Shown here: in pieces, positions 1-15,969 of the stretch | How the letters are laid out: the number at the start of each line of letters is the position of its first letter | Position numbering within the stretch: position 1 is the first letter of the stretch | DNA from: a virus | Reading direction: 5' to 3' (one strand) | IMG/VR virus record: IMGVR_UViG_3300032093_000512 | Coordinates: 1 to 32,868 of that record | DNA: 32,868 bases | Made by a program: the position numbers and the translations under genes | The notes under the pieces: model-generated | Seen by the model: only the letters and a program-made list of their open reading frames with translations | The model's database searches: none | What the model was told of the DNA's origin: nothing

Positions 1-110
1 ACGAAACCTTTGGCGGCAAGTTCGGCGGCTGGGGTGTCTACCCCGGCTATGGCGGCGCCCCTGACAGCACATTCACCCACTGGATGCCCCTCCCGGAGCC
101 CCCAGCATGA
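1..110 (+). CDS. DUF551-like protein, C-terminal fragment
   Basis: Frame 3 is open from the left edge to the TGA at 108-110; the start lies outside the window. The visible 35 residues are rich in Gly, Trp and Tyr and end with THWMPLPEPPA. A terminal W-M-P-L-P-E-P-P is the hallmark of DUF551 proteins, small phage and prophage proteins of unknown function. The stop overlaps the next ATG (ATGA), so the two genes are probably translationally coupled. Family recognition rests on this tail motif only. Confidence 0.65.
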   Translation, partial: ETFGGKFGGWGVYPGYGGAPDSTFTHWMPLPEPPA

Positions 111-307
111 CCCGCACCCGCCCGCTCCAGACAGCCGCCGAACTCCGCGCCGAGCGCCACGCCCGGACGTTCCTGCCTCGCCAGCTTCCCCCGCCTGACC
201 CGCGTGTGGCCCGGCTCGCTGCTGAAGGCTACGTGCCCGTCCAGATCGCTTCCATGCTGCGGATGCCCGTCGCGGATGTGAGGCTGATGTTGGCGGTGAA
301 GTCATGA
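107..307 (+). CDS. small helix-turn-helix-like protein, unknown
   Basis: A 66-residue basic protein with no family I recognise. The N-terminal half is rich in Arg and Pro. The C-terminal half, about residues 34-62, reads as two or three short helices with a turn (VARLAAEGYVPVQIASMLRM), resembling the sigma-70 region 4/HTH pattern in which AAEGYVPVQIASML would contain the turn. A DNA-binding role is an inference. It is bracketed by ATGA overlaps on both sides (107-110 and 304-307), which supports the start and shows that it belongs to one polycistronic chain. Confidence 0.55.
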   Translation: MTRTRPLQTAAELRAERHARTFLPRQLPPPDPRVARLAAEGYVPVQIASMLRMPVADVRLMLAVKS

Positions 308-822
308 GGACCGAAGTCATCGGAGACGCCACGCCCATCAAGGGCACCACGATTTACCTGCTGCGCGGCCGGATCGGAGGCCCTGTAAGGTACGTTGGAA
401 AAACAGCCCGTTATATGTGCGATCGCCATAAGCAGCACTTGCGAGAGGCCAAAAAAGGGCGCTCGCTTCCCGTGTGTCGTTGGCTGGCAAAGCAGCCTGC
501 AAGTGTCATTGAAGCCGTGGAATTTGTTCCTGACGGGCAAGATTGGGCCGCTCGGGAGCGTTACTGGATACAGCATTACCGGAACGTTGGCGCCCCGCTG
601 TTGAATTTGACAGACGGGGGCGAGGGGCTTTCTGGTCACTCGCCTACGCCTGAACACCGCGCGAAAATAGCAGCCAAACTTCGGACGGGCGCACACTTTG
701 CGTGTGAGGTTTGCGATCAACAGTTCTGGCGCAAAAAGCGGGACATCCAGGCTGGGCACAATCGCTTCTGTTCTCGGCGCTGCGCGAACACGCGCCACAA
801 AGGCAAGGGGCTGTTCCAATGA
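304..822 (+). CDS. GIY-YIG family nuclease with NUMOD3-like and zinc-finger parts
   Basis: This 172-residue protein resembles free-standing GIY-YIG endonucleases of phages. The first motif appears as TTIYLLRG (residues 15-22) and the second as RYVGKT (29-34), followed by R41 and H42; E85 in ARERYWIQHY is the expected metal-binding glutamate. NLTDGGEGLSGHSPTPEHR looks like a NUMOD3 DNA-binding motif, and the C-terminus has a CEVC...CSRRC zinc-binding pattern. Such enzymes cut DNA and often act as homing endonucleases. It starts in an ATGA overlap with the preceding gene and ends in one with the methyltransferase. Whether it is mobile, or cuts unmodified competitor DNA, cannot be told from the sequence. 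Confidence 0.85.
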   Translation: MRTEVIGDATPIKGTTIYLLRGRIGGPVRYVGKTARYMCDRHKQHLREAKKGRSLPVCRWLAKQPASVIEAVEFVPDGQDWAARERYWIQHYRNVGAPLLNLTDGGEGLSGHSPTPEHRAKIAAKLRTGAHFACEVCDQQFWRKKRDIQAGHNRFCSRRCANTRHKGKGLFQ

Positions 823-1544
823 CCAGTCCGAAAAAAGTGACAATTGGCGATGCGGAACTTTGGTTAGGCGATTGCCTTGAGGTTCTGCCTACGCTGGGGC
901 GGGTGGATGCTGTCGTGACTGATCCGCCTTATGGGATTGGGCGGGACGGGCAGAAACGCACAACAGGCGGCAACGGCGGACGCAAAGAATACGCTTTCAA
1001 GGGCTGGGATGCAAGCCGCCCTGAAGCGCCGATTTTTGCTGCAATGCTAGACATGGCTGACGAGGCGGTCATCTGGGGCGGCAACTACTTTGCAGATTTG
1101 CTGCCTCCGAAGGGCAAATGGCTTGTCTGGGACAAAGGCCAGCGGATCAATCAATCGGACGGCGAGCTTGCCTATACCACCCTTGACGGCGCGCTCCGCA
1201 TCTTCACGCAGAACCGCGTGGCCTTGCTTGTAGAAGGCGCTCAGCACCCGACACAGAAGCCGCTGGAGGTGATGCGCTGGAGCATTCTTCAGCTTCCCGA
1301 TGCAAAGACAATCTGCGACCCTTTCATGGGCTCCGGCACCACAGGCGTAGCCGCCCTACAGCTTGGCCGGAAGTTCATCGGCATAGAGCTGGACCCCGGT
1401 TACTTCGACATTGCTTGCCGCCGCATCGAGGAAGCATGGCGCCAACCGCGCCTCTTTGACGAACCGAAGGCAAAGCCCGAACCGGCGCCTTCGCTCTTTG
1501 ACGCAACCCAAACCGTAACAACAACACACGCGAGGAAGACATGA
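819..1544 (+). CDS. orphan DNA methyltransferase (beta-class, N6-adenine or N4-cytosine type)
   Basis: SAM-dependent amino-methyltransferase of 241 residues. The catalytic motif IV is DPPY (residues 35-38), followed by HPTQKP (143-148) and the SAM-binding motif I DPFMGSGT (167-174). Motif IV before motif I defines the beta class. DPPY is commonest in N6-adenine enzymes, but the base cannot be assigned from this alone. I chose the ATG at 819 because it overlaps the preceding stop as ATGA and has a purine-rich stretch (AGGCAAGGGG) about 8 bases upstream; the in-frame ATG at 711 would overlap the nuclease by more than 100 bases. No restriction partner is visible, so protection from host restriction or regulation by methylation is likely. 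Confidence 0.92.
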   Translation: MTSPKKVTIGDAELWLGDCLEVLPTLGRVDAVVTDPPYGIGRDGQKRTTGGNGGRKEYAFKGWDASRPEAPIFAAMLDMADEAVIWGGNYFADLLPPKGKWLVWDKGQRINQSDGELAYTTLDGALRIFTQNRVALLVEGAQHPTQKPLEVMRWSILQLPDAKTICDPFMGSGTTGVAALQLGRKFIGIELDPGYFDIACRRIEEAWRQPRLFDEPKAKPEPAPSLFDATQTVTTTHARKT

Positions 1545-1882
1545 CCGCCACAATACACACGCCGTACAAGGACCAACTGGAAAGCGCGCTAGAGCGCATG
1601 ATGTTGCCGCCCCGGTTCCCGCATCACGAAGTCATGGTGGACGGGCGACTGATCCCGAACCTTGAATGTCGCAGGGACGGCGACACGATCACTTTCCTGC
1701 TTGACCGGCGCTTTGCTCTGGATGTGCCAATCGACCTCGCCATCCCGGTCGCCAGCTTCGTTGCCAACGCAATGGCGATAGGCGCTGGATACCCGTGGCA
1801 CGGAGCCGAAAGCAAGAGCGCGCCGTTTGCCATGAAGTGCATGGAAGCCTCGGTCAGCACTGAGCCGGGAGTGCCGATATGA
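1541..1882 (+). CDS. hypothetical protein
   Basis: A 113-residue protein that I do not recognise. It has an amphipathic N-terminal helix (KDQLESALERMM), a central segment with alternating charged and hydrophobic residues suggesting strands, and an alanine-rich hydrophobic stretch (IPVASFVANAMAIGAG) that is short for a membrane helix. It starts in an ATGA overlap with the methyltransferase and ends in another with the next gene, so its reading frame is well supported by context. Function unknown; it travels with the accessory genes. Confidence 0.7.
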   Translation: MTATIHTPYKDQLESALERMMLPPRFPHHEVMVDGRLIPNLECRRDGDTITFLLDRRFALDVPIDLAIPVASFVANAMAIGAGYPWHGAESKSAPFAMKCMEASVSTEPGVPI

Positions 1883-2124
1883 CCGAGGATGAAGCGAAGA
1901 TGACCGACAAGCTGGAAATTCTGGCTCGGGCTTGGATTGAGTGTGATCCGAACCGCCAGCCTGCTGACCCCGACGAAATCATGACCCAAATGTCGGGCGA
2001 GTTGAAGGATCAGCCCCGCTGGCGCTGGTTCATGCCGCGCGCCGTAGCGCTGGAAGAATACCTTGAACGGCATGGCTTTGTCATCGTCCGTGCTGAGCGC
2101 GTCGGCCTAGCGGGGCGCCCATGA
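1879..2124 (+). CDS. hypothetical protein, small and acidic
   Basis: An 81-residue protein without a recognisable domain. It is helical and rich in Trp and charged residues (DKLEILARAWIECD, QPRWRWFMPRAVALEEYLERHGF). Repeated WxW-type residues and a C-terminal amphipathic helix suggest a small soluble globular protein. Both ends are ATGA overlaps (1879-1882 and 2121-2124), which is the main support for the call. Confidence 0.6.
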   Translation: MTEDEAKMTDKLEILARAWIECDPNRQPADPDEIMTQMSGELKDQPRWRWFMPRAVALEEYLERHGFVIVRAERVGLAGRP

Positions 2125-2183
2125 TCCCCCTCATCCTCCTGATCCAACTCATGGGCGCCGTCGTCTGGGCAGGTGCGGAATGA
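2121..2183 (+). CDS. 20-residue membrane peptide
   Basis: A very short reading frame, ATG at 2121 to TGA at 2181-2183. It begins MIPLILLIQLMG, and 18 of its 20 residues are hydrophobic or small, enough for one membrane-spanning helix. It is linked on both sides by ATGA overlaps, exactly like its larger neighbours, and fills the gap between the genes ending at 2124 and starting at 2180. The alternative is that it only carries ribosomes across the gap for reinitiation. It has no assignable function. Confidence 0.4.
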   Translation: MIPLILLIQLMGAVVWAGAE

Positions 2184-2797
2184 ACCCCGCCGCAAACTAC
2201 ATCATCGGCTCCTGCCGCCCGTGGAAATACGGATACATCCGCCGCGAGTATACCCGCTCCCGCGAAGACGGGCACGGGGAATACCTCGTCTGCGCTATCC
2301 ACGGCCTGCGTGTGATCGAAGGCGAAAGCCTCTGGTTCCAGTGCATGATCATGGAAGGCAAAGGCGCAGGCGCTGGGTTCATGGCCCCGATTGAAGCGTT
2401 TTGCCATCGCATCCCCGACGAACCCCGCGCCAAGGGCGAGCCCGTGGACATGAACATGATCCAACCATGGGACACGTTTTCGTCCAGCTTTGGCGTTCAC
2501 GAGTTCGAGTTCCACCGGCACATGCGCGCCGTGATCCTGCCAGCCAGGATGGATGCAACCTACTGGTTCACCATCGACTTTGCCGAAAGCAGCCTTGCCG
2601 AGAACGCAGACCAGCACAAGCACCTGCACCTGTTCGAGCTGGCAGACGGCAACATAGGCGCGTTTCCGAACAACCGCGTGCTGTGGAACGACCCGGCGTT
2701 TTGCAAGCCGACTGAAGAGCGGCCTGATTTCACAAGCCTGTGGGGCGAGTTTAGATCGGAAGGCGTTCTGCCCGTTGGAGGTGGAAACCCATGGTGA
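2180..2797 (+). CDS. hypothetical protein
   Basis: A 205-residue protein that I cannot assign. It appears soluble, with mixed strands and helices, many aromatic residues and a His-rich segment (QHKHLHLFELADG) in the C-terminal third. There is no signal peptide or membrane segment. The start is an ATGA overlap with the tiny membrane peptide and the end overlaps the following gene by 7 bases. Its position among accessory genes suggests a non-structural role. Confidence 0.7.
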   Translation: MNPAANYIIGSCRPWKYGYIRREYTRSREDGHGEYLVCAIHGLRVIEGESLWFQCMIMEGKGAGAGFMAPIEAFCHRIPDEPRAKGEPVDMNMIQPWDTFSSSFGVHEFEFHRHMRAVILPARMDATYWFTIDFAESSLAENADQHKHLHLFELADGNIGAFPNNRVLWNDPAFCKPTEERPDFTSLWGEFRSEGVLPVGGGNPW

Positions 2798-2973
2798 GAC
2801 CGCACTCCTTCCGCTGCCAGTTCAACTGGCACCGCTACGATGAAACCGACGAATTTGGCCGCACGTGGTGTTCCCGCTGCGGCGAACGCCAGCCCCGCCG
2901 CTTCGCCCAAATCCAACCCGCTGAAGACGTTGGCCGCGTGATGAACCGGCCACGCACGAAAGGTCAACGCTGA
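2791..2973 (+). CDS. small zinc-binding protein, DUF1660-like
   Basis: A basic protein of 60 residues. It has a CxxC pair in TWCSRCGERQ plus an upstream Cys and His (FRCQFNWHRY), so one zinc could be held by the four ligands C9, H13 and the CxxC. This short arrangement resembles the DUF1660 prophage proteins, whose function is not known. It overlaps the preceding gene by 7 bases and ends in TGATG, sharing one base with the next start. Family placement is tentative; zinc binding is likely. Confidence 0.6.
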   Translation: MVRPHSFRCQFNWHRYDETDEFGRTWCSRCGERQPRRFAQIQPAEDVGRVMNRPRTKGQR

Positions 2974-3500
2974 TGCCTTGGTTCGCTTTTACCGCCCGCC
3001 ACGAAGTCAAAGCCGCTCAGGAGCTACGTAGCGAGGGCTACAACGCCTATTGCGTGCAAATGGTAGACCGGCGCAAGCGTCACCGCCACCGGGCCAAGGG
3101 CGGGGCTGTGTGGGAGCCTCACGCCATTGTGGCGCTCAAGGGCTATGTGTTCATAGAGGCCGATTTCCCAGACCTGTGGGCCATTGGCAAGCTGCGCCAT
3201 GTCAGCCAGCCCGTGCGGTTCTGCGGTCGTCTACGGCCCATCCCAGACGCACAGCTTGCGGCTATCCTGTCAGACCGGGGGCAATACTTCCGGGATGACG
3301 ATCCCCCGAAAGCCCTTTCCCGCAAGGCGCCTGCCCACATCGCCCCCGGCGACAATGTGCGGTTTGACTTTGCCGCTGAAGCGATTGACGCGCCTGTCAT
3401 GGCCGTAGACGGAGAAACCTTGCTCGTGAAGCTGAACCGGATGATACTTGGCCGGGATACGATGCGGATCAGGGCGGAACTGGTGGAGAAGGTGGGGTGA
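2973..3500 (+). CDS. NusG/RfaH-family transcription antitermination protein
   Basis: This 175-residue protein has the two-domain plan of NusG and RfaH. The NGN domain runs from about residue 2 to 110: PWFAFTARHEVKAAQELRSE is the characteristic first strand and helix, and ALKGYVFIEAD matches the conserved PLFPGYVFV-type strand. A KOW-like C-terminal domain follows (IAPGDNVRFDF, GETLLVKLNRMI, residues about 123-172). Family members bind RNA polymerase and suppress pausing or termination, in some cases at specific promoter-proximal sequences. It starts at the TGATG junction with the zinc protein and lies just upstream of the noncoding boundary before the late genes, so control of late transcription is a reasonable inference. 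Confidence 0.85.
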   Translation: MPWFAFTARHEVKAAQELRSEGYNAYCVQMVDRRKRHRHRAKGGAVWEPHAIVALKGYVFIEADFPDLWAIGKLRHVSQPVRFCGRLRPIPDAQLAAILSDRGQYFRDDDPPKALSRKAPAHIAPGDNVRFDFAAEAIDAPVMAVDGETLLVKLNRMILGRDTMRIRAELVEKVG

Positions 3501-3769
3501 CCATTGACAGCTTCGGTCGGCTTGGTGACGTGGTAAAAGCCTTGCTTGGTGTTTGGCTTATTTGCGTTTGCATGGTGGGCACCTTTGAAGTGCTGGGGAA
3601 AGCCTACTCCGTTCTGTATCCGCAGATATACACCGACCCGGACACTGGCTGCCAACTGAAAGCCGTCTACCGTGACGGCAAGCTAATTGGGTTTAACCCT
3701 GTCTGGACCGATGACAACGCGCTTGCGGGCTGTAAACGTCAGCCTATTGACCTAATCCGCGAACCCTAG
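3497..3769 (+). CDS. small membrane protein, unknown
   Basis: This 90-residue protein has one predicted membrane helix at about residues 12-34 (LLGVWLICVCMVGTF), followed by a soluble part with two cysteines (DTGCQLKAVYRDGKLIGF and AGCKRQ). The start is a GTG at 3497 that overlaps the NusG-like stop (GTGA); I see no better start. The C-terminal part could be periplasmic with a disulphide, which is an inference. It is the last gene before a 215 bp noncoding stretch. Confidence 0.65.
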   Translation: MTIDSFGRLGDVVKALLGVWLICVCMVGTFEVLGKAYSVLYPQIYTDPDTGCQLKAVYRDGKLIGFNPVWTDDNALAGCKRQPIDLIREP

Positions 3770-3784
3770 CACAACATACACGCT

Positions 3785-3830
3785 TCAGGTTGATCCGCAC
3801 GCAGCCCAAAGGGCCGAGCCGCGAACCTGA
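3785..3830 (+). repeat. nested inverted repeats, candidate RNA element or operator
   Basis: TCAGGTT (3785-3791) and AACCTGA (3824-3830) are perfect 7 bp inverted arms. Between them GCCC-AAA-GGGC (3804-3814) forms a small inner stem. No run of T follows, so it is not a typical intrinsic terminator. It could be an RNA structure read by the NusG-like protein or an operator; that is inference. Confidence 0.4.
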
Positions 3831-3941
3831 TCCACGGGGGCCGGGCTAACCGCGACGCCTCCATGTGCGAAGCAATGCCACAACGCAGCGCGATAGTGAG
3901 CCGGGCCCCGGACGACTCCAGACGACTCCCCTTGTGTCCCC

Positions 3942-3959
3942 AGCCGGTCACCCCCGGCT
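3942..3959 (+). repeat. GC-rich hairpin upstream of the 3985 gene
   Basis: AGCCGG, a 6-base loop TCACCC, then CCGGCT form a perfect 6 bp stem ending 15 bases before the AGGAG ribosome site at 3975-3979. No T-tract follows. It may stabilise the 5' end of a late transcript. Confidence 0.35.
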
Positions 3960-3974
3960 CTCTCCCGCGCTGAC

Positions 3975-3979
3975 AGGAG
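3975..3979 (+). promoter_or_regulatory. Shine-Dalgarno AGGAG deciding the start at 3985
   Basis: AGGAG lies 5 bases before the ATG at 3985. It identifies the true start of the 134-residue protein; the frame stays open 120 bases further upstream, but without a ribosome site. Confidence 0.75.
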
Positions 3980-3984
3980 ATCCC

Positions 3985-4389
3985 ATGAGACTTATCCCGA
4001 TGGAAGAAGCGCGCTTGGTCGAGCAAGCGTGGAATGCCCAGCAGGCCGTCAATGGCCCTGAGCATACGGCAGACGTTGCCCTGCGCAACAAGCTGTCCGG
4101 CGAATTGCAAGAGGTTCACGACAGGGTAAACAAGCGTCTGGACAATTACTCGCGCGCCATGAACGCGCTGCGCGACTATCACCAGATTGAAGTGGAGTCC
4201 GGCGAAGCTGAGCCGGCCGACAACGAGGACGCCGCGCAAGTCATCAACGGCTACGGCCACACCTACGATTCGGATGAGTGGAAATATGTCGGCCCGAAAA
4301 CGTCGATAACCATGACAAACGGCGTTGTCGGTTTCGCGCATGACGACGACATTTTTGAAGACTTCACCCCGCCCGCACGGGCTGACTAG
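3985..4389 (+). CDS. hypothetical acidic protein
   Basis: A protein of 134 residues, starting at the ATG that follows AGGAG. The first half is helical and possibly coiled coil (QEVHDRVNKRLDNYSRAMNALRDY); the second half is strongly acidic (VESGEAEPADNEDAAQ, HDDDIFEDF). No family recognised. It is the first gene after the noncoding boundary and so probably opens the late block. An early regulatory or DNA-mimic role for such an acidic protein is possible but unsupported. Confidence 0.75.
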   Translation: MRLIPMEEARLVEQAWNAQQAVNGPEHTADVALRNKLSGELQEVHDRVNKRLDNYSRAMNALRDYHQIEVESGEAEPADNEDAAQVINGYGHTYDSDEWKYVGPKTSITMTNGVVGFAHDDDIFEDFTPPARAD

Positions 4390-4398
4390 GAGAGCGCT

Positions 4399-4596
4399 AT
4401 GACCCCTGAACAAAAACGAGTTGCCATGTTCGTCTGCGCCATTCTGGTTGGCGTTGGCGCTTACGTCCTGACCAGCAAGATCGTCTTTGACGGCGCTGCG
4501 ACCCCGAAAGAACTGCTGACCTTTGCCGGCGTGCTTGTCTCTGCCGCTGCTGGCGTATGGGCCGGCGCTGCGTTCTGGAAGCAGAACAAGCCCTGA
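4399..4596 (+). CDS. two-TM small membrane protein, holin candidate
   Basis: A 65-residue protein with two predicted membrane helices, VAMFVCAILVGVGAYVL (about residues 8-24) and LLTFAGVLVSAAAGVWAGAAF (about 39-59), joined by a short loop with a charged KE pair, and ending in a basic tail (WKQNKP). Size and topology match class II holins, but many small phage membrane proteins look alike, and this one lies far from the lysozyme gene. An AGGAG at 4388-4392 precedes the ATG at 4399 by 6 bases. The stop overlaps the next start (TGATG). Confidence 0.65.
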   Translation: MTPEQKRVAMFVCAILVGVGAYVLTSKIVFDGAATPKELLTFAGVLVSAAAGVWAGAAFWKQNKP

Positions 4597-4673
4597 TGCT
4601 GTTCGCAGCCGCCATCCTGCTTTGCCTCGCGCTCGGTTGCCTCATCGCAATCGGGCGTATTGCGTGGCGCTGA
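4596..4673 (+). CDS. 25-residue membrane peptide
   Basis: ATG at 4596 shares a base with the preceding stop (TGATG) and the frame ends at TGA 4671-4673. The peptide opens MLFAAAILLCLALGCLIAIG and ends with RIAWR, so one hydrophobic helix is followed by a positively charged end, expected to stay in the cytoplasm. Coupling to a two-TM protein suggests a partner or modulator, as in holin pairs; that is inference. Too short for homology-based support. Confidence 0.45.
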   Translation: MLFAAAILLCLALGCLIAIGRIAWR

Positions 4674-4722
4674 ATTTCCAGCGGCTGATCAGTATCGGCT
4701 CGTTCAGGCGCTGAAATCCCTA

Positions 4723-4743
4723 GCCGGGAGGGGTGTTCCCGGC
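4723..4743 (+). repeat. GC-rich hairpin in the 4674-4813 gap
   Basis: GCCGGGA (4723-4729), a 7-base loop, and TCCCGGC (4737-4743) form a perfect 7 bp stem. No T-run follows, so intrinsic termination is doubtful. It may be an RNA-processing or stability element between the membrane-peptide genes and the 4814 gene. Confidence 0.45.
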
Positions 4744-4777
4744 ACCCAATCCCCCGTCCTTCAAACTTGCATGACCA

Positions 4778-4794
4778 GCGCCCATTCCGGGCGC
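4778..4794 (+). repeat. second GC hairpin before the 4814 gene
   Basis: GCGCCC (4778-4783), loop ATTCC, and GGGCGC (4789-4794) form a perfect 6 bp stem that ends 8 bases before the AGGAG at 4803-4807. A hairpin just ahead of a ribosome site can protect a 5' mRNA end; no promoter was recognised. Confidence 0.4.
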
Positions 4795-4813
4795 CTAACC
4801 ACAGGAGCTTGTC

Positions 4814-5575
4814 ATGTCGTCTGTACCCGTCCGTTATCCGTCCGGCGTTGCGTCTCGACCCGCAGATCACCTGTACGGCAACTTTCCCCGTCCTGACCCG
4901 TCGCAGGTCTGGCAGTTCTTCGATGACTTCAACGGGTTCACCGTTGCAGCGGCCGGCGTCACCGGCTGGCACCTTGATGAGGTAAACACCGGCACCGGCC
5001 CGACGATGCTGGATGAGTTCGGCGGCGTGGTTCAGTTTGAGGCGGACACTGCCCAGGGCGACAACTACCATTACCAGCTTGCGATCAACACGACCCCGTT
5101 TGAGCCGGTCAAGCTGATTGCTGGCAAGAAAGCATGGCTTTCCACCTGCTTCAGCATCGAGGACGCTGACCAGAACAGCGTGTTCATCGGCGCGCACATC
5201 ACGGCAGATGACATTCTTGGCACTGAGCCGACTGACCAGTTCGGGGTGCGTGCCCTGCTTGGTGTGCTGACCTGCATTGCAGGCAAGACGGCATCGACCG
5301 AAGTTGTCGGCACCCTTGTTGCCGCCATGACCGACAGTGTGCGTTATGCGATCTATATGTACTATGACGGCAAGGACACGGTGCGCTGCCAAGCCTATAC
5401 CGTGGTGAGCGATGTCTACACGCTCGTAGGTTCGGCCAGCCTTGATGTCACCTCGTCCACTGCGGGCGACCTGCTGCCCGACACTGAAATGACCATCGCG
5501 TTCGCCCATGAGGCAAACGACACCGGCACAGACAAGTTCCAGCTTGACTGGATTCACATTTCCAGGGAGCGCTGA
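4814..5575 (+). CDS. beta-rich protein, possible ConA-like lectin-fold virion protein
   Basis: A protein of 253 residues, with AGGAG 6 bases before the ATG. After a 30-residue lead it is almost entirely beta-like, with patterns seen in concanavalin-like jelly rolls: FFDDFNGF near the start, AWLSTCFSIEDADQNSVFIG in the middle, VRYAIYMYYDGKDTVRC later, and a final strand FQLDWIHISRER. There is no signal peptide. The fold assignment comes from reading the pattern, not from a match I can name. Neighbouring genes are a second beta-rich protein and the terminase, so a head decoration or other virion surface role is plausible. Confidence 0.65.
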   Translation: MSSVPVRYPSGVASRPADHLYGNFPRPDPSQVWQFFDDFNGFTVAAAGVTGWHLDEVNTGTGPTMLDEFGGVVQFEADTAQGDNYHYQLAINTTPFEPVKLIAGKKAWLSTCFSIEDADQNSVFIGAHITADDILGTEPTDQFGVRALLGVLTCIAGKTASTEVVGTLVAAMTDSVRYAIYMYYDGKDTVRCQAYTVVSDVYTLVGSASLDVTSSTAGDLLPDTEMTIAFAHEANDTGTDKFQLDWIHISRER

Positions 5576-5578
5576 TCC

Positions 5579-5962
5579 ATGGCCGACGCCGTAGCCAGCC
5601 AGACCCTTTTGAACGGCCCGCGCAATTGCGTGATGAAGTTCACCAACCTGTCAGACGGCACGGGTGAATCGGCCGTCACGAAGGTCGATGTATCCGCTCT
5701 GGGCTACAGCCGGGTCCGCATCGACAAGATACACTACACCTGTTCCGGCATGACGGTTCGCCTCCTGTGGGACGCGACAGCCGATGTGCCGATCTTCGAG
5801 CTTGGCCCCGACAAGACCAGCACGCTGGATTTCACGCACTTCGGCGGGCTCCGAAACAACGCAGGCGACGGCGTCACGGGTGACATCAACTTCACCACAG
5901 TCGGCCATTCATCCGGCGACAGCTACTCAATTATCCTTGAGATGGTTGCCACCCCAGCCTGA
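5579..5962 (+). CDS. beta-rich phage protein, possible decoration or structural protein
   Basis: A 127-residue protein preceded by AGGGAG (5563-5568). It begins MADAVASQTLLNGPRNCVMK and continues with KFTNLSDGTGESAVTKVDVS, a pattern I associate with a conserved small phage structural or unknown family found near head genes. The remainder alternates strands and turns, as in a beta-sandwich (VRLLWDATADVPIFELG, SYSIILEMVATPA). The role in the virion is unproven. It follows the lectin-like protein by 3 bases, suggesting joint expression. Confidence 0.65.
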   Translation: MADAVASQTLLNGPRNCVMKFTNLSDGTGESAVTKVDVSALGYSRVRIDKIHYTCSGMTVRLLWDATADVPIFELGPDKTSTLDFTHFGGLRNNAGDGVTGDINFTTVGHSSGDSYSIILEMVATPA

Positions 5963-6004
5963 TAGCGCCTGAGCTCCGCGCGCATAAGCCGGGGCGCCTC
6001 ATGA

Positions 6005-6451
6005 ATGGGGAAGATGATGCCAGCACTCGCAAACGATAAGGAAGAAGCGCTCGCACAGGAGTTGGCTAAAGGCGCAACGCAGGCGTTAGCTTGGATAAAC
6101 GCCGGATACCCCGCCAAAAACAACAGCGTAGCTTCTGTGCAGTGCAACAAGCTGCTAAAAAAGAAACCAGAGATAAACCAGCGCGTCGATGAGCTTCGTG
6201 CCATTGCCCGCGACACGATCCTGACAGCCGAGTTCAATGGATCGGTTGAAGAACTGGCCCGCCTGCTTTTGGAAGACCGGCAGTTTGCCCGCGAGCAGAA
6301 ACAGGCCGGTGCTGCCGTGTCCGCATCTGCCCAGCTTATGAAGTTGTTCGAGAAGGGCGCGGACAACGTGAAGCACGGGGCATCTGAAAGCCTTGAGCGT
6401 TTCCTGGATTCGATTGCGTCACAGCCGCGCTTGAGTAATGGCGACCGCTGA
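6005..6451 (+). CDS. terS: terminase small subunit
   Basis: The protein has 148 residues. Terminase small subunits bind the packaging site on phage DNA and regulate the large subunit. The helix-turn-helix section runs about residues 12-60: EALAQELAKGATQALAWINA followed by GYPAKNNSVASVQ and KKPEINQRVDEL, the usual order for this family. The C-terminal half is helical, for oligomerisation. It overlaps the large-subunit start by 14 bases. The start is uncertain: ATG at 6005, 6014 and 6017 share the frame, and GGGGAA at 6007-6012 would serve the 6017 codon at short spacing. Confidence 0.85.
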   Translation: MGKMMPALANDKEEALAQELAKGATQALAWINAGYPAKNNSVASVQCNKLLKKKPEINQRVDELRAIARDTILTAEFNGSVEELARLLLEDRQFAREQKQAGAAVSASAQLMKLFEKGADNVKHGASESLERFLDSIASQPRLSNGDR

Positions 6452-7982
6452 TCAAATGAAGGACTGGCGCTGGCGCGTCAGCAACCTTTACACCATCGCG
6501 GACGAAGAAGGGCGGGTCATTCCGTTCCGGCCGAATGGCGAACAGATCAAGCTCATGGATACGATGCACAACCGCAACGTCATCCTGAAAGCCCGCCAGC
6601 TTGGTTTCTCTACGCTGATCCAGATCATGGGCCTCGATACCTGCTTGTTCCATGCCAACACCAACATGGGCGTTATTGCTCAGGACCTGCCTACCGCCGG
6701 CCGCATTTTCAGGGAAAAGATCAAGGACGTTTACGAACGACTACCGGACTCGATCCGCGCGCTGCGTGCCGCGACACAGAACTCCGAGCGCGCCATGGAG
6801 TTCTCGAACAAGTCGCGGATCTGGGTTGATACGTCGATGCGTTCGGGAACGTTGCAGTTCCTGCACGTCTCCGAGCTGGGCAAGATTGCAGCAAAATATC
6901 CAGGCAAAGCGCGAGAGATCAAAACAGGCGCGTTTCCTACGGTTCACTCAGGCCAACACATTTTCGTTGAAAGCACAGCCGAGGGGCAGGGCGGCTTGTT
7001 TCACGAGATGGTCATGACGGCCAGAGAGCGTGAAGATCAGGGCCTAGAGCTGACACCGCTTGAGTTCAAATTGCACTTCGTTCCGTGGTGGAATGACAAT
7101 CGCTACCGGATCAAGACTGACCGCACGATCCCGGCGAAGCATCAGGCATATTTTGCAGAACTCAAGCGCCAGCACGGCATTGAACTCGATATTGAGCAGC
7201 AGCGCTGGTACAGCCAACAAGCCCTGCAACAGGGCGAGGACATGCGCCGGGAGTTCCCGAGCTACCTTGAGGAAGCGTTCGAAGCCCCGATTGAGGGCGC
7301 TTACTACACCGAGGAACTGCGCCGCGCCCGTGAGCAATTGAGGATCGGGGATTACCCGTTCGATCCGAAGCTAGGTGCGGTTTACACGTTCTGGGATTTG
7401 GGCCGGTCGGACCTCATGACGATCTGGCTGGCGCAAAGGGTAGGCGCGTCACGCTGGCGGTTCTTTGACTATATCGAGGGGCAGGACGAGAGCTTCCCGC
7501 ACTATGCCCGTGTGCTGAGAGAGAAACAGAACGAACACGGCGGATGGGTATACGGCGGACACTTCCTCCCGCACGACGGCGCAAGGACGGACATCAGCGC
7601 CGCCGCGAGCCGAAAGACCACGCTGGAAAACCTGCACATCTTCCCGGTGCATATCGTGAAGCGCACCAAGGACCTGAGCGGCCCGGCGCTGACTAGTTCG
7701 ATCAACTTGGTGAAGGCGTTCATGGACCTTTGCGCGTTTGACCGCGTGGGCTGCGCTGAAGGGCTGAAGCATCTCGCCAACTACCGGCGCGAATGGGACG
7801 ACAAGCTGGCGATCTGGAAGACCAAGCCGTTCCACAATCAGGCGTCTGACGGTTCGGACGGATACAGGACAGCGGCAGAAGCGGATTACCAGGGGCTCCT
7901 GGACCGCGAAATGTACGGCGATGACTACGACGCGGCGGCCGAAAACCGGCTGCGCCATGCGGATGAACACACGGGGTATTGA
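6438..7982 (+). CDS. terL: terminase large subunit (packaging ATPase-nuclease)
   Basis: A 514-residue DNA-packaging motor that pumps DNA into the procapsid and cuts it. The N-terminal ATPase has a Walker A-like KARQLGFST (residues 51-59), a Walker B region FLHVSELG (141-148) with E146 as the likely catalytic acid, and a coupling motif VESTAEG (177-183). The C-terminal RNase H-like nuclease contributes D320 in FWDLGRSD and acids D471 and D474 in SDGSDGYR. Length and motif order are normal for the family. It starts inside the small-subunit gene and ends at the TGATG junction with the portal. Confidence 0.96.
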   Translation: MATADQMKDWRWRVSNLYTIADEEGRVIPFRPNGEQIKLMDTMHNRNVILKARQLGFSTLIQIMGLDTCLFHANTNMGVIAQDLPTAGRIFREKIKDVYERLPDSIRALRAATQNSERAMEFSNKSRIWVDTSMRSGTLQFLHVSELGKIAAKYPGKAREIKTGAFPTVHSGQHIFVESTAEGQGGLFHEMVMTAREREDQGLELTPLEFKLHFVPWWNDNRYRIKTDRTIPAKHQAYFAELKRQHGIELDIEQQRWYSQQALQQGEDMRREFPSYLEEAFEAPIEGAYYTEELRRAREQLRIGDYPFDPKLGAVYTFWDLGRSDLMTIWLAQRVGASRWRFFDYIEGQDESFPHYARVLREKQNEHGGWVYGGHFLPHDGARTDISAAASRKTTLENLHIFPVHIVKRTKDLSGPALTSSINLVKAFMDLCAFDRVGCAEGLKHLANYRREWDDKLAIWKTKPFHNQASDGSDGYRTAAEADYQGLLDREMYGDDYDAAAENRLRHADEHTGY

Positions 7983-9943
7983 TGCTGAACCCAACTGACA
8001 ACGGATACGACGAGGAACTGGACGGCGCTGCCGAACGGGCTCCTGTGTCCGTTGCGCAGAACTTGGCCGACATCTTAGCGTTTCGGGGCAACCTTATCGA
8101 GCTGATGCCGGAAGACGAACGCCGCCGGCTTGGCGCGGAAGTGGTCCGCGAGTACCGGATTGACGAGGCGAGCCGCAAGCCATGGCTGGACGGCGTAGAG
8201 CGCGCAATCAAGCTGGCGAAGCAGGACCCCGAGGCGAAGAACTACCCGTTCCTGAAAGCCTCCAACATCAAGTATCCCGTGCTGACCGCTGCGGCGATCC
8301 AGTTCGGGAGCCGTGCCTACGGCGCTGTGACGCGCTCTGACCAGCCCACGGTCACGAAAGTGCTAGGCGATGATCCGAACGGCCTCAAGGCGGCCCGTGC
8401 GTCTCGCCTGACGGCGTGGAACAACTACCAGCTCATGTACGCCATGGACGAATGGGACAGGGGCACAGACGAGCTTCTGCACACCATCCCGGTCACGGGC
8501 GCATCGTTCCGCAAGGTGTACTGGGACGCCTCGCTTGGCCGGATCGTGGCAGAGCATACGAGGGCACAGCATGTCTGCGTCCACAATGACAGCCCGAGTT
8601 TCGACCGCGCGCCGCGCCAGACGCAACCAATAGAGTATTACCCCAGCGAAATCCGCAGGCTGATCAAGCTCGGCAAGTGGGCGAACCACAAGTACGACGC
8701 AGACGACACGGAAGACAGCCAGAAAGCGGTTCGGTATCTTGAGCAGCTCCGGTTCATCGACCTTGACGGCGATGGTCTTGACGAGCCGTACATCGTGACG
8801 GTTGAGGAATGCTACGAGACGCCTGTGCGGCTTGATCCGGCATTCTCCAAGCGGTCCATGATGGTGACAGGAATGGGCGACGTGGAGACGATCCTGCGGG
8901 AAAGCCCGTGGATTGATTACAACTTCCTGCCCGACATGGACGGATCGGTGTACGGCATGGGGTTCGGCCAGCTCCTTGAAAGCCTTGGCGCCGCGATCAA
9001 CACGATGCTGAACCAGATCGTGGACGCGGGCACACGCCAGAACACGGGCGGCGGGTTCATTGCAGAATCCCTGCGTCTCAAAGGTGCGCGCGGCGGCGTG
9101 ATGCAGATCAACCCCGGCGAATACAAGTTCGTGAAGGCAGACGGCCAAGCCCTGACGAACAGCATTCATACGCTGACATTCCCCGGCCCGAGCCCGGTGC
9201 AGTTCCAGCTTGTCGAGTTCCTGCTGGGCGCGGCGCAGGACATCACGGCGGTCAAGGACGTGCTGACGGGTGATGCGCCAAGCGGCCAGGCCATGGGATC
9301 CACGATGGCGCTGATTGAGCAGGGCTTGCAGGTCTTCTCAACAATCTACACGCGCGTTTATCGCTCGATGCGGCGCGAGCTTCGCCTGATGCACCGTTTG
9401 AATGGCCTGTATCTTCCGGCCGAGACGTACATGAAGTTCCAGGACAGCCCTGATCTGCAACAGATGGTTCAGCAGGGCTATGACATCCGGCAAGAGTTCG
9501 ACCTTGAGGGCATGGATGTTGCCCCGAGCGCGGACCCCAAGTCCGTGACGGACATGCAGCGCATGATGCGGGCAGAATATGTCGGGCAGTTCAAGGGAAT
9601 GCCCGGCATGAACACGGCGGAGATTATCAAGTTCCAGCTTGAGGCCGCGCATATTCCGAAGCCGGAGCGGTTCTTCGCGCAAGGGCCTGACCCGATGGCG
9701 GGCCTCGCGCAGGAAAAAGCCAAGCATGAAGTGGCCGGCGAGAAGGCCAAGGTCATGAAGACGATGGCCGAGGCCGAGAAGATCAACCAGGAGGCAGAGA
9801 ATGCAGCGCTTGAGCGCGGAGCAACAATCGGAATGGCTGGAGGAATGGGCGGCATGGAAGGCCAGCCCGATGACACGGGCGTTCTACCAGTGCCTCAGCC
9901 AAATGGCGCAGGCCCAGCGGGACAAATGGGCGGCCAGTTTTGA
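7982..9943 (+). CDS. portal protein, P22-like
   Basis: The portal (653 residues) forms the dodecameric vertex through which DNA enters and leaves the capsid. Length and sequence style match the P22-type podovirus portal: an N-terminal helical part with KPWLDGVERAIKLAKQD, the YPFLKASNIKYPVLTAAAIQF stretch typical of the family, a central segment with DGSVYGMGFGQLLESLGAAI and the NQIVDAGTRQNTGG loop, and a long C-terminal helix (EKAKHEVAGEKAKVMKTMAE) resembling the barrel, then a Gly/Met-rich tail. I prefer the ATG at 7982, sharing a base with the terminase stop (TGATG), over a TTG one codon earlier. The last 143 bases also encode another protein in a different frame. Confidence 0.93.
   Translation: MLNPTDNGYDEELDGAAERAPVSVAQNLADILAFRGNLIELMPEDERRRLGAEVVREYRIDEASRKPWLDGVERAIKLAKQDPEAKNYPFLKASNIKYPVLTAAAIQFGSRAYGAVTRSDQPTVTKVLGDDPNGLKAARASRLTAWNNYQLMYAMDEWDRGTDELLHTIPVTGASFRKVYWDASLGRIVAEHTRAQHVCVHNDSPSFDRAPRQTQPIEYYPSEIRRLIKLGKWANHKYDADDTEDSQKAVRYLEQLRFIDLDGDGLDEPYIVTVEECYETPVRLDPAFSKRSMMVTGMGDVETILRESPWIDYNFLPDMDGSVYGMGFGQLLESLGAAINTMLNQIVDAGTRQNTGGGFIAESLRLKGARGGVMQINPGEYKFVKADGQALTNSIHTLTFPGPSPVQFQLVEFLLGAAQDITAVKDVLTGDAPSGQAMGSTMALIEQGLQVFSTIYTRVYRSMRRELRLMHRLNGLYLPAETYMKFQDSPDLQQMVQQGYDIRQEFDLEGMDVAPSADPKSVTDMQRMMRAEYVGQFKGMPGMNTAEIIKFQLEAAHIPKPERFFAQGPDPMAGLAQEKAKHEVAGEKAKVMKTMAEAEKINQEAENAALERGATIGMAGGMGGMEGQPDDTGVLPVPQPNGAGPAGQMGGQF
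9789..9794 (+). promoter_or_regulatory. Shine-Dalgarno AGGAGG inside the portal gene
   Basis: AGGAGG is 6 bases before the ATG at 9801, inside the 3' end of the portal coding sequence. It decides the start of the overlapping 90-residue gene and is the best ribosome site in this part of the window. Confidence 0.75.
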
Positions 9944-10073
9944 CCATCCCGAACCGCCCGGCCCGCAATACTGGAGCCAGTTGAAGTTCCAGGCCCTTGC
10001 CATTGAAGACATCACTAACCTGACAGGAGAAGACATCCTTGACCAACTACAAGCCCCTGCCGAAGCTGACTGA
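9801..10073 (+). CDS. hypothetical protein overlapping the portal 3' end
   Basis: A protein of 90 residues in the +1 frame relative to the portal; its first 143 bases lie inside that gene. Support comes from the AGGAGG 6 bases upstream, from continuation beyond the portal stop, and from a protein-like composition: helical and Trp-rich (SEQQSEWLEEW is approximate; the visible stretch is LSAEQQSEWLEEWAAWKASP), then MTRAFYQCLSQMAQAQRD. The phrase W...SPMTRAFYQ recalls small conserved proteins encoded after portals in podoviruses. Function unknown; a role in head assembly is suggested only by position. It overlaps the start of the GroES-like gene by 35 bases. Confidence 0.75.
   Translation: MQRLSAEQQSEWLEEWAAWKASPMTRAFYQCLSQMAQAQRDKWAASFDHPEPPGPQYWSQLKFQALAIEDITNLTGEDILDQLQAPAEAD
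10025..10029 (+). promoter_or_regulatory. Shine-Dalgarno AGGAG supporting a TTG start
   Basis: AGGAG is 9 bases upstream of the TTG at 10039. It supports a non-ATG start for the GroES-like gene, inside the end of the preceding gene. Confidence 0.65.
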
Positions 10074-10425
10074 CCTTGATCCCGGAATCGAGGTGTTCGA
10101 GTTCAACATCCTTGTCCTGCCGCGCCAGCTTGAGGAAAAGACGAAAGGCGGGCTGCTGCTTGCCGAAACGTCCCTTGAGCGTGAAGACGAGGCAGGCATC
10201 GAGGGCCTTGTGGTCCGCGCCGGGGAGTTTGCGTTCCATTTCGAGGACGCAAACGGCAATATCGAGCCGTGGAACAGCAAGCCGGAGCCCGGTGATGTGG
10301 TGATGTTTGCGCGTTATGCCGGCGGGCGCAATTTCATCGGCACGGACGGGCGCCGTTATCGCATCATGAAGGACAAGGACATCCTCGGCGTGCGCCGGAC
10401 TGAGCCTGCCAAGGTGATCGCATGA
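10039..10425 (+). CDS. GroES-like co-chaperonin
   Basis: A 128-residue protein with the GroES pattern after a 17-residue extension. GroES caps GroEL and encloses the folding chamber. Residues 22-31 (FNILVLPRQL) match the first strand; EEKTKGGLLLAE (32-43) matches the mobile loop, with LLL in place of the GroEL-contacting IVL; GLVVRAG (56-62) matches the EVLAVG strand; PGDVVMFARYAGG (84-96) matches the VGDIVIF strand; and YRIMKDKDILGV near the end matches VLIMSESDILAI. Between portal and scaffold, it may replace host GroES on host GroEL for coat folding, as T4 gp31 does. It starts with TTG after AGGAG. No GroEL is visible. Confidence 0.85.
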   Translation: MTNYKPLPKLTDLDPGIEVFEFNILVLPRQLEEKTKGGLLLAETSLEREDEAGIEGLVVRAGEFAFHFEDANGNIEPWNSKPEPGDVVMFARYAGGRNFIGTDGRRYRIMKDKDILGVRRTEPAKVIA

Positions 10426-11315
10426 GCATCGAAGCCGATACCGAAGACCATGTTGAAGAAGCTGCGCTTGCTGACGAGGCGGTAGAGCTTTCCGAAGTCG
10501 AACAGCTTGCGTCCGAGCTTGGCTGGAAGCCCCGCACGGCTTGGAAGACGAAGCCCGGCCAAGAAGATACGTGGACGGACGCCGCAACGTTCATCCGCCA
10601 GACCAAGGCGAAGGCTGAAGCGACCCGCAAGGAGCTTATCGACACGAAAAAGAGCGTTGACGATGCTGTCGTCAAACGTGTCGAAGCGATGGAGCGGATG
10701 GTCCGCACCAAGCATGAGCGCGAACTTGCCAGCGTCCGCTCGGAATACACCACGCTGATCCGCCAGGCCGTTGCCAAGGGTGACGAGCGGGCAGAAGACG
10801 CGCTCCGGGCTGAACTGGAAGGCATCGAGAAGGAATACGAAGACCTCAACCAGGTCGAGTTGACCCCCGAACAGCTCAAGAAGGCTGAAGACGAGTGGGT
10901 TGAGAGCTTCCCGATAAGCTATCCCAAGGTCCAGAAGCCGTTTTGGGAAGACCACGCATGGCTCCTCGATGACGAGGCTGACATCGAAGACTTTGGCCTC
11001 GTGGAGGCCGAGATTACCCGGATGATGCAAAGCGGCCGCTCCCTGCCTGAAGCGCTGGAAGCCGCAGACAAGCTGATCCGGAAGACGTTTGCCGAACGGT
11101 ATGAGGAAGACCCCGAACCCGTGCGGCGAGCGGAGAAAGACGGCCCGAGAGTGCCCGTCCTTGGCAGTGCACGCCGGGGCGCGGCAAAAACTCTGGCCTC
11201 GCGGCTACCGCCTGAAGCGCGAACGCAGGCTGCGAAAGACATCAAGCAAGGGCTTTTCGGTTCCTATGAGGAATGGGCCGAAGTCTATCAGGAATCAGGT
11301 GGAGAACTGCTATGA
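10422..11315 (+). CDS. scaffolding-like head assembly protein
   Basis: The protein has 297 residues, is highly charged, and contains long helical segments with coiled-coil character (residues about 60-160: KAEATRKELIDTKKSVDDAV, VEAMERMVRTKHERELASVR). Scaffold proteins direct coat assembly and are removed before or during packaging. Placement between portal and major capsid protein, acidic N-terminus and lack of any enzyme motif all fit. There is no clear sequence signature, so the call rests on position and composition. It starts in an ATGA overlap with the GroES-like gene and ends in one with the next gene. Confidence 0.75.
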   Translation: MSIEADTEDHVEEAALADEAVELSEVEQLASELGWKPRTAWKTKPGQEDTWTDAATFIRQTKAKAEATRKELIDTKKSVDDAVVKRVEAMERMVRTKHERELASVRSEYTTLIRQAVAKGDERAEDALRAELEGIEKEYEDLNQVELTPEQLKKAEDEWVESFPISYPKVQKPFWEDHAWLLDDEADIEDFGLVEAEITRMMQSGRSLPEALEAADKLIRKTFAERYEEDPEPVRRAEKDGPRVPVLGSARRGAAKTLASRLPPEARTQAAKDIKQGLFGSYEEWAEVYQESGGELL

Positions 11316-11833
11316 GCGAGACCGAACAGGAACAAGTGAAGCCTCGCCGGGGCGCCCGCGTAAAGTCGGGACCGAATGCAGAGCTTGCCAAGCGCCGCGC
11401 GGAGCGGATGCAGCGCGGATCTGTTGACCATGGGTTCAACAAACGGCTCGGCCTTGATGACGGCCAGCTAGATCACGCAAACTATCGCTATCGGTGGGTC
11501 AACGACACGCCGGGCAACGTCTCGCAGCTTACAGCCCGTGAATGGGAGCTGGTGCCAAGCGAGGAAATCGGCGGGCAGGAAGTCGCCCGTCACGCAGGCA
11601 CCGACCCGAAGGGGAAGGGAATGCAGACCGTGCTGATGCGCAAGTTCAGGCCGTGGTTCGAAGAAGACGCCGCCGCTGCGCTGACGCTGCACAAGAAGAA
11701 CATGGCCGACATGATGCGCGGCGCGAGCGACGTCCAGCGCGCTCCTGACTCCGATGGGCATGAATACGCTCTCAAAACCAACCGTGTCGAAGACGTGGCA
11801 AGCCGCCCTGTGCGCAACCCGGACTTCGGATAA
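11312..11833 (+). CDS. conserved-type phage protein upstream of capsid genes, unknown
   Basis: A 173-residue protein. I chose the ATG at 11312 because it overlaps the scaffold stop (ATGA); the frame is open further upstream inside that gene. The N-terminus is basic (KPRRGARVKSG, AKRRAERMQRG), and the middle has NYRYRWVNDTPGNVSQLTAR followed by EWELVP. This arrangement is one I associate with a small phage protein encoded just ahead of capsid genes, of unknown function. A DNA- or head-binding role is possible from the basic N-terminus. Confidence 0.7.
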   Translation: MSETEQEQVKPRRGARVKSGPNAELAKRRAERMQRGSVDHGFNKRLGLDDGQLDHANYRYRWVNDTPGNVSQLTAREWELVPSEEIGGQEVARHAGTDPKGKGMQTVLMRKFRPWFEEDAAAALTLHKKNMADMMRGASDVQRAPDSDGHEYALKTNRVEDVASRPVRNPDFG

Positions 11834-11857
11834 CCCCCTCAATCAAGGACAATTCAA

Positions 11858-12454
11858 ATGCCTAACGTCAACTCGGCGTTTGGCTTGCGCCCCGTGCGAA
11901 ATCTTGGTGGGGCGCCGTACAACGGCGCTTGCAACACCTACGTCGCACTCGCAAGCTACGCCACAAACATGTTCATCGGTGACCCGGTTGTGGTCACGGG
12001 AACGTCCGTAGCCGGCACGTCCGGCGGTTCCTACCAGGTCGTCAACGTGGCCACGGCAGGCGCAACGAACCAGATCACCGGCGTCATCGTGGGCTTTGGT
12101 CCGACGCCTTCCATCGTGCAGAACGGTTACGGCCTCGCCTCCACGCTTCGTGAGGTCTACGTTGCTGATGATCCGACGCTCCTGTTCGAAATCCAGGAAG
12201 ACAGCGTTGGCGGCGACATTGCTCTGGTATCGGCCGGCCTGAATGCCAACCTCGTTTCGGGCACGGGTTCGACTGCTACCAAGAAGTCCGGCTGGATGCT
12301 GGATTCTTCGACGGTGGCGGCTGACGCGACGTTCCAACTCACGGTTCGCCGTGCGATTGACCGTCCCGACAACGTCACGCCCGACACGAACGCCAAGTTC
12401 CTCGTGTCCATCAACCTCCATACCAATCGGTATGGCGCAGTAGCGGGGCTGTAA
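11858..12454 (+). CDS. head decoration-like structural protein
   Basis: A 198-residue, largely beta-structured protein, preceded by AAGGA (11844-11848). It opens with NSAFGLRPVRNLGGAPYNG and contains MFIGDPVVVTG, ITGVIVGFGP and DDPTLLFEIQED, which resemble small capsid decoration proteins in phages whose coat gene follows. Decoration proteins bind the outside of expanded capsids. It sits 3 bases before the major capsid gene, so the two are expressed together. Family name uncertain; structural role likely. Confidence 0.75.
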   Translation: MPNVNSAFGLRPVRNLGGAPYNGACNTYVALASYATNMFIGDPVVVTGTSVAGTSGGSYQVVNVATAGATNQITGVIVGFGPTPSIVQNGYGLASTLREVYVADDPTLLFEIQEDSVGGDIALVSAGLNANLVSGTGSTATKKSGWMLDSSTVAADATFQLTVRRAIDRPDNVTPDTNAKFLVSINLHTNRYGAVAGL

Positions 12455-12457
12455 ACC

Positions 12458-13363
12458 ATGACGGTGATCACACGTTCCGCCCACCCGTCAGCGCTCTGGC
12501 CTGGCGTAAAGGCATTTTTCGGGAAGACCTACAAGGAAATCCCGATGCAGTGCGACATGATCTTCACCGAGGAAAGCTCGGAGAAGGCATACGAAGAAAT
12601 CGTCGAATCCACCTCGTTCGGCTATGCGTCGATCAAGAAGGAAGGTCAGGCGATTGCCTACGACTCGGATTCCGAAGGCTACAAGAACCGTGCAACGCAC
12701 GCGGTCTACGGCCTCGGGTTCATCGTGACGCGCGAGGAAAAGGAAGACAACCAGTATGAAGCCAAGGGCAAGTCCCGTGCGCGTTCGCTGGCCTATTCCA
12801 TGCGCCAGACCAAGGAAGTGATCCACGCCGGCATCTTCAACACGGCGTTCAGCACGACCTACGGCGACGGCGCGGCGCTTTGCTCGACGGCTCACCCGAC
12901 GCTGGCGGGCAACAAGGCCAACAAGCTGGCCGTGGATGCAGAACTTTCGGAAGCGGCGTTGGAAGACGCCCAGATCGAACTGTTCCTGTTCACGAACAGC
13001 CGTGGCCTGCGCATCAACGTCAGCCCGAAGCGGCTGATCGTTCCTCCGCAGCTCTCGTTTGTCGCAAAGCGCCTCCTGTCGTCTGACAAGCAGCCCGGCA
13101 CGGCAAACAACGACATCAACGCCACGAAGGCCATGGGCCTGATCAGCGAAGATTTCGTCAACTACCGTTACCTGACCAGCCCAACTGCGTGGTTCCTGCA
13201 AACGGATGTGCCGCAAGGCTTCACCCGCTACCAGCGGCGCGCGATGGAGCTTCAGCAGGACAACGACTTCGACACCGAGAACGCCAAGGCCAAGGCGACC
13301 GAGCGCTATGTTGCGACGGTCAACGACTGGCGTGCGGTCTGGGGTTCGGACGGCGCTGCCTGA
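12458..13363 (+). CDS. major capsid protein, Mu gpT-like
   Basis: A coat protein of 301 residues. It resembles the Mu gpT-type major head subunit: near the N-terminus ALWPGVKAFFGKTYKEIPMQ, then an E-loop region with SFGYASIKKEGQAI, the segment SLAYSMRQTKEVIHAGIFNT that forms the long helix, CSTAHPTLAG in the middle, and RLIVPPQLSFVAKRLLSS near the end. Such proteins have the HK97 fold. Position after scaffold and decoration genes agrees. I see no separate protease gene in the window, although the large internal protein has a metallopeptidase-like motif. Confidence 0.9.
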   Translation: MTVITRSAHPSALWPGVKAFFGKTYKEIPMQCDMIFTEESSEKAYEEIVESTSFGYASIKKEGQAIAYDSDSEGYKNRATHAVYGLGFIVTREEKEDNQYEAKGKSRARSLAYSMRQTKEVIHAGIFNTAFSTTYGDGAALCSTAHPTLAGNKANKLAVDAELSEAALEDAQIELFLFTNSRGLRINVSPKRLIVPPQLSFVAKRLLSSDKQPGTANNDINATKAMGLISEDFVNYRYLTSPTAWFLQTDVPQGFTRYQRRAMELQQDNDFDTENAKAKATERYVATVNDWRAVWGSDGAA

Positions 13364-14303: not shown

Positions 14304-14500
14304 GCAAGAAACAGGACACCGCAAAGCCGACGCCGGCACAACTGAAGCTGCTTCGCCGCGCTGTGCGTGAGAAGCTGGGCATCGATACGGCGCTGGCGAA
14401 GAAGAAAAAGCCGGTGCTGACCGATCCTGACGAGGAAATGGCGTCCAAGGGCAAGGTGGCGCGCAAGGGCTATGCATCGTCCGTGAGCGGCAATGCCTGA
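14300..14500 (+). CDS. small basic protein, unknown
   Basis: A lysine-rich protein of 66 residues (ALAKKKKPVLTD, ASKGKVARKGYASS), predicted mostly helical in its first half. No recognised domain. It begins in an ATGA overlap with the head-tail adaptor and ends 8 bases inside the next gene. A small virion or core component is a guess based on position. Confidence 0.6.
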   Translation: MSKKQDTAKPTPAQLKLLRRAVREKLGIDTALAKKKKPVLTDPDEEMASKGKVARKGYASSVSGNA

Positions 14501-15957: not shown

Positions 15958-15969
15958 CGCGAGGGTCCG

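Follow-up and report, generated by a model that had tools for sequence, protein, structure and literature searches.

The locus described here raises the question of whether a phage-encoded relative of NusG acts at the boundary between early and late genes, and whether the noncoding DNA behind its gene could hold the site at which it joins RNA polymerase. The DNA analyzed (hereafter the window) is the 32,868-base virus contig IMGVR_UViG_3300032093_000512, positions 1 to 32,868. The same virus is represented by a longer contig, IMGVR_UViG_3300031963_000315 (42,776 bases), which differs from the window by 17 letters across window positions 1–19,940, and those differences that could be placed all lie within 4664–4948. 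Another contig, L005, carries the window version in this patch but diverges upstream of 4592, a pattern across 4592–4948 that points to a module boundary near the start of the late genes.

The gene order around the boundary was defined using Pfam and PHROG matches. On the early side, the longer contig contains DnaB helicase and DUF1376 genes (Pfam) upstream of the NusG-like ORF, followed by small ORFs and genes for a GIY-YIG protein and a DNA methylase, all on the + strand. The NusG-like ORF itself (2973–3500, + strand, 175 aa) is overlapped at its stop codon by a 90-aa ORF without a family match (3497–3769, + strand), behind which lies the noncoding interval 3770–3984. In a hand-made gene list of the window this 215-nt gap is the longest noncoding interval, the next ones being 139 and 95 nt, and it contains no plausible gene. 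The original prediction had placed the noncoding region just downstream from the NusG-like gene; the region exists as described, but the 90-aa ORF intervenes. The first ORF past the leader (3985–4389, + strand, 134 aa) has a good ribosome-binding site, and about 28 kb of late genes follow the gap in the window. That the region precedes the late genes was borne out by the + strand genes for the terminase large subunit (6438–7982, PHROG) and the portal (7979–9943, PHROG and Pfam SU10_portal), which served as markers of the late operon, and by Pfam matches to a capsid protein at 12458 and a lysozyme at 30576, while a terminase-small-subunit match at 6005 was weak and below the Pfam cut-off. The late side also includes two chaperone-like genes recognized by Pfam, a GroES-like gene in the head region (10039–10425) and an Hsp70-like gene beside the lysozyme gene (29107–30579; HSP70, 8.6e-110). 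In phage lambda, the Q gene occupies the same kind of place, at the end of the early genes and before the late leader. The NusG-like gene of the window, at the end of the early operon and ahead of the late leader, takes up a Q-like position.

The assignment of the 2973–3500 product to the RfaH/NusG family, as originally proposed, held on several grounds. The protein matched Pfam NusG (PF02357) with 24.8 bits against a cut-off of 22.2, which identifies an NGN domain, and this was its sole Pfam match at E ≤ 0.1; it also matched PHROG 6386 (phrog_6386), annotated as a transcription antiterminator. An AlphaFold model calculated from an alignment of the window protein with eight divergent relatives had a pLDDT of 81, while an earlier prediction from only two sequences was poor (pLDDT 40). 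The model shows the strands and helices of an NGN domain (residues ∼1–103) followed by a small KOW-like barrel (∼122–175, with strands across 128–174); the barrel is seen in the prediction only, with no Pfam KOW match in this protein. Comparisons using VIA-align showed that residues 1–103 align to the N-domains of NusG and RfaH, with a Z score of 9.5 and an rmsd of 2.1 over 96 residues for the RfaH N-domain, and a Z score of 12.3 over 155 residues spanning both domains for Thermotoga maritima NusG. The top ranks in Foldseek were Aquifex NusG (1.6e-6) and polymerase-bound RfaH (2.4e-6), and the low whole-chain TM-scores (0.37–0.43) are explained by a different placement of the domains. Among viral models, ranks two and three were taken by proteins of uncultured phages named RfaH and NusG antiterminator, which indicates that such phage proteins are already present in databases. 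On the basis of its profile matches and modeled fold, the 2973–3500 product is a predicted two-domain, divergent NusG paralogue.

The only near relative of this protein that was found is in the longer contig of the same virus. A search of 50,697 phage records gave no convincing match, with three weak ones at E 0.9 or worse. None of 396 genomes of one order contained a relative, in a search run without a positive control, so that this empty answer is uninformative, and a whole-record search with the Pfam NusG profile missed the NusG-like gene of the window itself, so that absence by that route carries little weight. NusG-like proteins were catalogued across 240 genomes from the class to which Phenylobacterium belongs, and NusG-like matches were also seen in unannotated phage records.

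To place the gene in a wider context, an alignment of four portals was used to collect loci encoding a portal relative, which gave 80 viral loci out of 559 candidates, plus 14 genome loci. NusG-like genes at these loci were detected using Pfam scans and a profile whose training set was partly made up of these genes. Such a gene was present in nine of the 94 portal-family loci listed, and in eight of the 33 loci that extend 7 kb or more upstream of the portal, while none was detected in the remaining 25 of the 33. All nine genes are on the portal (late) strand and end 2.8–6.6 kb before the portal; one of the nine loci (L013) is that of the window's own virus, and two others are prophages in a single Phenylobacterium genome. 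In one of these prophages (L107) the NusG gene is in two pieces, at ∼6579–7247, and looks broken, while the copy in the other (L098) is intact. Upstream ORFs at the portal-family loci numbered 267 candidates, of which 232 passed a length filter and 192 (90 + 102) were scanned; among the latter, Pfam recognized one GcrA, three DnaA C-terminal domains, and two sigma-70 region 4 domains. Regulators of these types might occupy the slot at loci without NusG.

Comparable arrangements were found in named phages. In the portal relative ct2G2228, a gene that its depositor named "rfah factor," which Pfam does not recognize, is located after a replication gene and before the late genes. Four further named phages fall outside the 18 records matched by portal. 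Bradyrhizobium phage ppBjS10J-1, which is outside the portal family, has a NusG-like gene in a comparable layout, as does Rhizobium phage RHph_N28_2, with a gene annotated as "NusG-like transcription antiterminator." The same annotation occurs in RHph_TM3_3_3, where the layout is visible on the late side only, and in both RHph phages a few opposite-strand genes lie between the antiterminator and the terminase. In Microcystis phage yong2 the NusG-like gene closes both the early operon and the linear record, and only the early side can be seen. The recurrence of this arrangement in diverse phages supports the view, already part of the original prediction, that a NusG paralogue at the early/late boundary acts there.

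The gap of the window was then considered for signals that such a protein could use. The original prediction had pointed to nested inverted repeats, and repeats are indeed present in the region 3886–3972 and adjacent to it, with 3886–3905 facing 3953–3972 (20 nt at 85%) and 3837–3850 facing 3896–3909 (14 nt at 86%); the two pairings are mutually exclusive, because both use 3896–3905. They are, though, not above chance. The folding of 3770–3984 had a z score of −1.01 against shuffled sequences, with 33 of 200 shuffles equally or more stable, and its stability was average among 60 same-length window segments (rank p 0.54). As Rfam also gave no match anywhere in the window, a structured RNA in 3770–3984 was rejected. 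No sigma70-like promoter above chance (p 0.785) and no intrinsic terminator were found in the window gap. Across 12 NusG gaps the mean z score for sigma70-like promoters was 0.25, with p ≤ 0.05 in four of them (L015, L061, L062, L098), and an unguided search for k-mers common to these 12 gaps gave nothing above shuffles. The end of the window leader is rich in C and poor in G (3906–3983, + strand), a composition with p 0.031 in the window alone and a nonsignificant 0.096 over 12 loci together; as a candidate Rho entry region it would suit Rho, albeit weakly. The leader also contains a 10-nt direct repeat with two sites of the CcrM methylation motif GANTC, at 3914 and 3924, out of 29 in the window.

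A much clearer signal came from the relatives of ppBjS10J-1, here called the L092 branch. Their NusG proteins are 76%–90% identical, and their leaders differ almost everywhere but in one block, which consists of GCAAATCAG or a close form of it, ∼15–20 nt, CGGCCGGT, a short spacer, and TTTCACCCGCCGGGnGGCTTGTG. In its short form, CAAATC..GGCCGGT..TTTCACCCGCCGGGnGGCTTGTG, this element is kept in five relatives with otherwise differing leaders. When all viral contigs were scanned for a 20-nt core of the element, with no protein criterion applied, the core was found in 23 contigs, 19 of which have a NusG-like ORF on the same strand that ends 48–316 nt upstream of the core. Three others (L156, L161, L176) are cut off at 302 nt or less upstream, too little for a NusG gene, while one (L162) has the element and no NusG gene in the 1.46 kb searched upstream. 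Hence, the element stands behind a NusG-like gene in 19 of the 20 viral contigs with enough upstream sequence; four of these 19 were already known through NusG, which leaves 15 independent ones. Of the 19 ORFs, 18 were also recovered by a profile that excluded the ppBjS10J-1 sequence, and the NusG proteins of the element loci range down to 40% identity to the ppBjS10J-1 protein. Among 397 genomes in the order of Bradyrhizobium the core occurs in one, again with a NusG-like ORF upstream (E 5e-20), and this genome is the sole one among 117 of its genus.

The invariance of the 20-nt core follows from the construction of the search, but conservation extends beyond the core. Within 90 nt upstream of it, CAAATC was present in 22 of 24 cases and GGCCGGT in 23 of 24, as compared with 4% and 1.4%, respectively, of random 90-nt pieces from the same loci. 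An intrinsic terminator with p ≤ 0.05 follows within 150 nt behind the element in 14 of the 24 cases (Fisher 1e-9, with some of the cases being close relatives). Pfam was applied to 37 of the 38 large ORFs downstream from the element, excluding one truncated by the end of its locus, and recognized portals of the P22 type (10) and the SU10 type (2), terminases (9 and 3), and capsid proteins (2). RNAalifold predicted that CGGCCGGT pairs with ACCCGCCG and that GGC-UUGU-GUC closes, and none of the predicted pairs changes on both sides, so that there is no covariation for an RNA fold of the element. In L157, L166, L167, L174, and L177, and in L092, L158, and L168, the element is directly preceded by sequences resembling TTTAACAAAnCACTAAATGACA or ATTAAT..TATGAATG, which may be promoters. 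The tie of the element to NusG-like genes makes the boundary a well-supported candidate loading site in the L092 branch, as judged from sequence comparison.

The idea that the boundary holds a loading site, which is well supported in this one branch, is only suggestive for the window. Neither the window nor any of 13 further NusG gaps or leaders contains the full element. The window gap contains, at 3931–3939 on the + strand, the sole copy in the window of CTTGTGTCC, which equals the 3′ piece of the L092-branch element; by chance, 3.0% of shuffled gaps and 1.3% of same-length segments match at least one of 11 conserved 9-mers. A count of element pieces in 12 NusG gaps that do not belong to the L092 branch, with that of the window among them, gave 26 against ∼8.7 expected, with overlapping pieces counted repeatedly, and this total was reached by none of 500 shuffles and none of 500 same-genome draws. 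At least one piece was present in 9 of 12 gaps, hardly more than in the reverse-strand control (8 of 12). The GCAAATC piece had been spotted in four NusG gaps before the branch alignment was seen. A permuted copy of the element in the window (GCCGGT and CACCC near CTTGTGTCC) was also considered, and a pattern search gave no support for it. Taken together, a single 9-nt piece in the absence of the full element would be suggestive of a loading site in the window gap. Group-specific sites would explain why the L092-branch element is missing from the window, much as the ops element and the LoaP hairpin differ from one another.

These features can be compared with those of known systems. RfaH and LoaP are described as joining RNA polymerase at signals in the leader and as enabling long operons to be read (PMC7819879, PMC12691694). 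Like RfaH, which acts at ops in Escherichia coli, the window protein is a NusG paralogue with predicted NGN and KOW-like domains, and its N-domain is predicted to match that of RfaH. It differs in scoring 16.1 bits against the RfaH family model TIGR01955, for which the cut-off is 144.5, and in being encoded in a phage, next to its presumed target. The best match to ops in the window leader covered 8 of 12 positions (p 0.595), which is at the level of chance, and an ops-like site in the gap was rejected. In the dfn system of Bacillus velezensis, the LoaP paralogue is also encoded beside its target operon, with a leader element and then a terminator (PMC12691694). LoaP uses a UNCG hairpin, whereas the element of the L092 branch is a different sequence. 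Inspection by eye of the L062 branch showed, in the NusG leaders of three of its five members (L146, L147, L150), CCTTCGGG stems with UUCG-type loops followed by a T-rich stretch, which recall the UNCG leader hairpin of LoaP.

The likeness to lambda Q lies in the place of the gene and in its presumed role, while by sequence the window protein is not Q, its sole Pfam match being NusG. GafZ of the Caulobacter gene transfer agent is likewise an antiterminator from alphaproteobacteria; it serves a phage-like late cluster and has a site at the promoter of that cluster. Unlike the NusG-like factor considered here, it is described as resembling no known antiterminator and as working with the host NusG (PMC11150451). 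Specialized NusG paralogues such as UpxY and ActX are also divergent, serve long operons, and are often encoded beside their targets, as reported in PMC7819879 and PMC6391919, and their targets are capsule, pilus, or plasmid operons; the window protein scored 16.7 bits against the UpxY model NF033644, far below its cut-off of 100. The target operons that these two sources name for specialized NusG paralogues are of the capsule, LPS, antibiotic, toxin, and plasmid types (PMC7819879, PMC6391919), and rfaH-like genes on prophages are mentioned in PMC7593976.

The best-supported reading, based on the protein family, the slot, the element, the terminators, and the analogy to known paralogues, is that the 2973–3500 product would be a late-gene antiterminator. 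It is probably a specialized NusG paralogue of the phage with a Q-like place and role. From these data we infer polymerase recruitment, antitermination, and the use of the element as a loading site. The paralogue would be made near the end of the early operon and would join the host RNA polymerase while the noncoding leader behind its gene is transcribed. There it would displace the housekeeping NusG, and the polymerase bearing it could reach the late genes by reading through terminators or getting past Rho.

Other explanations have to be weighed against this one. The paralogue could act elsewhere, on early transcripts or host genes, for example as a decoy against NusG–Rho, with its boundary position merely reflecting the end of the early operon. 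The window, in which neither a recognized loading element nor a terminator in the gap was found, agrees with this possibility, which we regard as unlikely because, in one branch, 19 of the 20 viral contigs that extend far enough upstream have the element behind a NusG-like gene, with terminators and head genes following it. It is also conceivable, with a still lower probability, that the gap is an ordinary late promoter region governed by another factor or by copy number, and that the NusG-like protein only aids processivity, with no specific site. The sigma70-like promoters in four of the 12 NusG gaps would fit such an arrangement, but the window gap is not among these four, and a promoter alone does not account for an invariant element.

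An action mainly on the translation of late messages, in which the protein would recruit ribosomes to the late leader as RfaH also does via its C-terminal domain, appears quite improbable. The predicted KOW-like C-domain is compatible with it, and RfaH is described as a translation factor too (PMC7819879), while the frequent intrinsic terminator behind the element is better suited to antitermination.

Returning to the late-antiterminator reading, its wider form holds that temperate phages, many of them alphaproteobacterial, have a second, independently evolved late switch, a NusG-type antiterminator in the Q slot that recognizes a group-specific leader element before a terminator, with the window as a divergent member whose element has drifted. 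We consider this version slightly better than an even bet. NusG paralogues and Q-type switches are each already known, and the new part is their combination with a NusG-linked leader element; a search of open-licence papers returned none describing this combination. The NusG gene, together with the conserved DNA element in some of the relatives, suggests a second, little-studied kind of late-gene switch. If this is true, there would be a class of phages in which the paralogue, the cis element, the terminator, and the target operon lie close together, and specialized NusG paralogues would also serve as late-gene switches. Such phages would offer a compact system for asking how NusG paralogues find their sites, and thanks to the element a single short DNA fragment and a small protein would suffice to test the idea.
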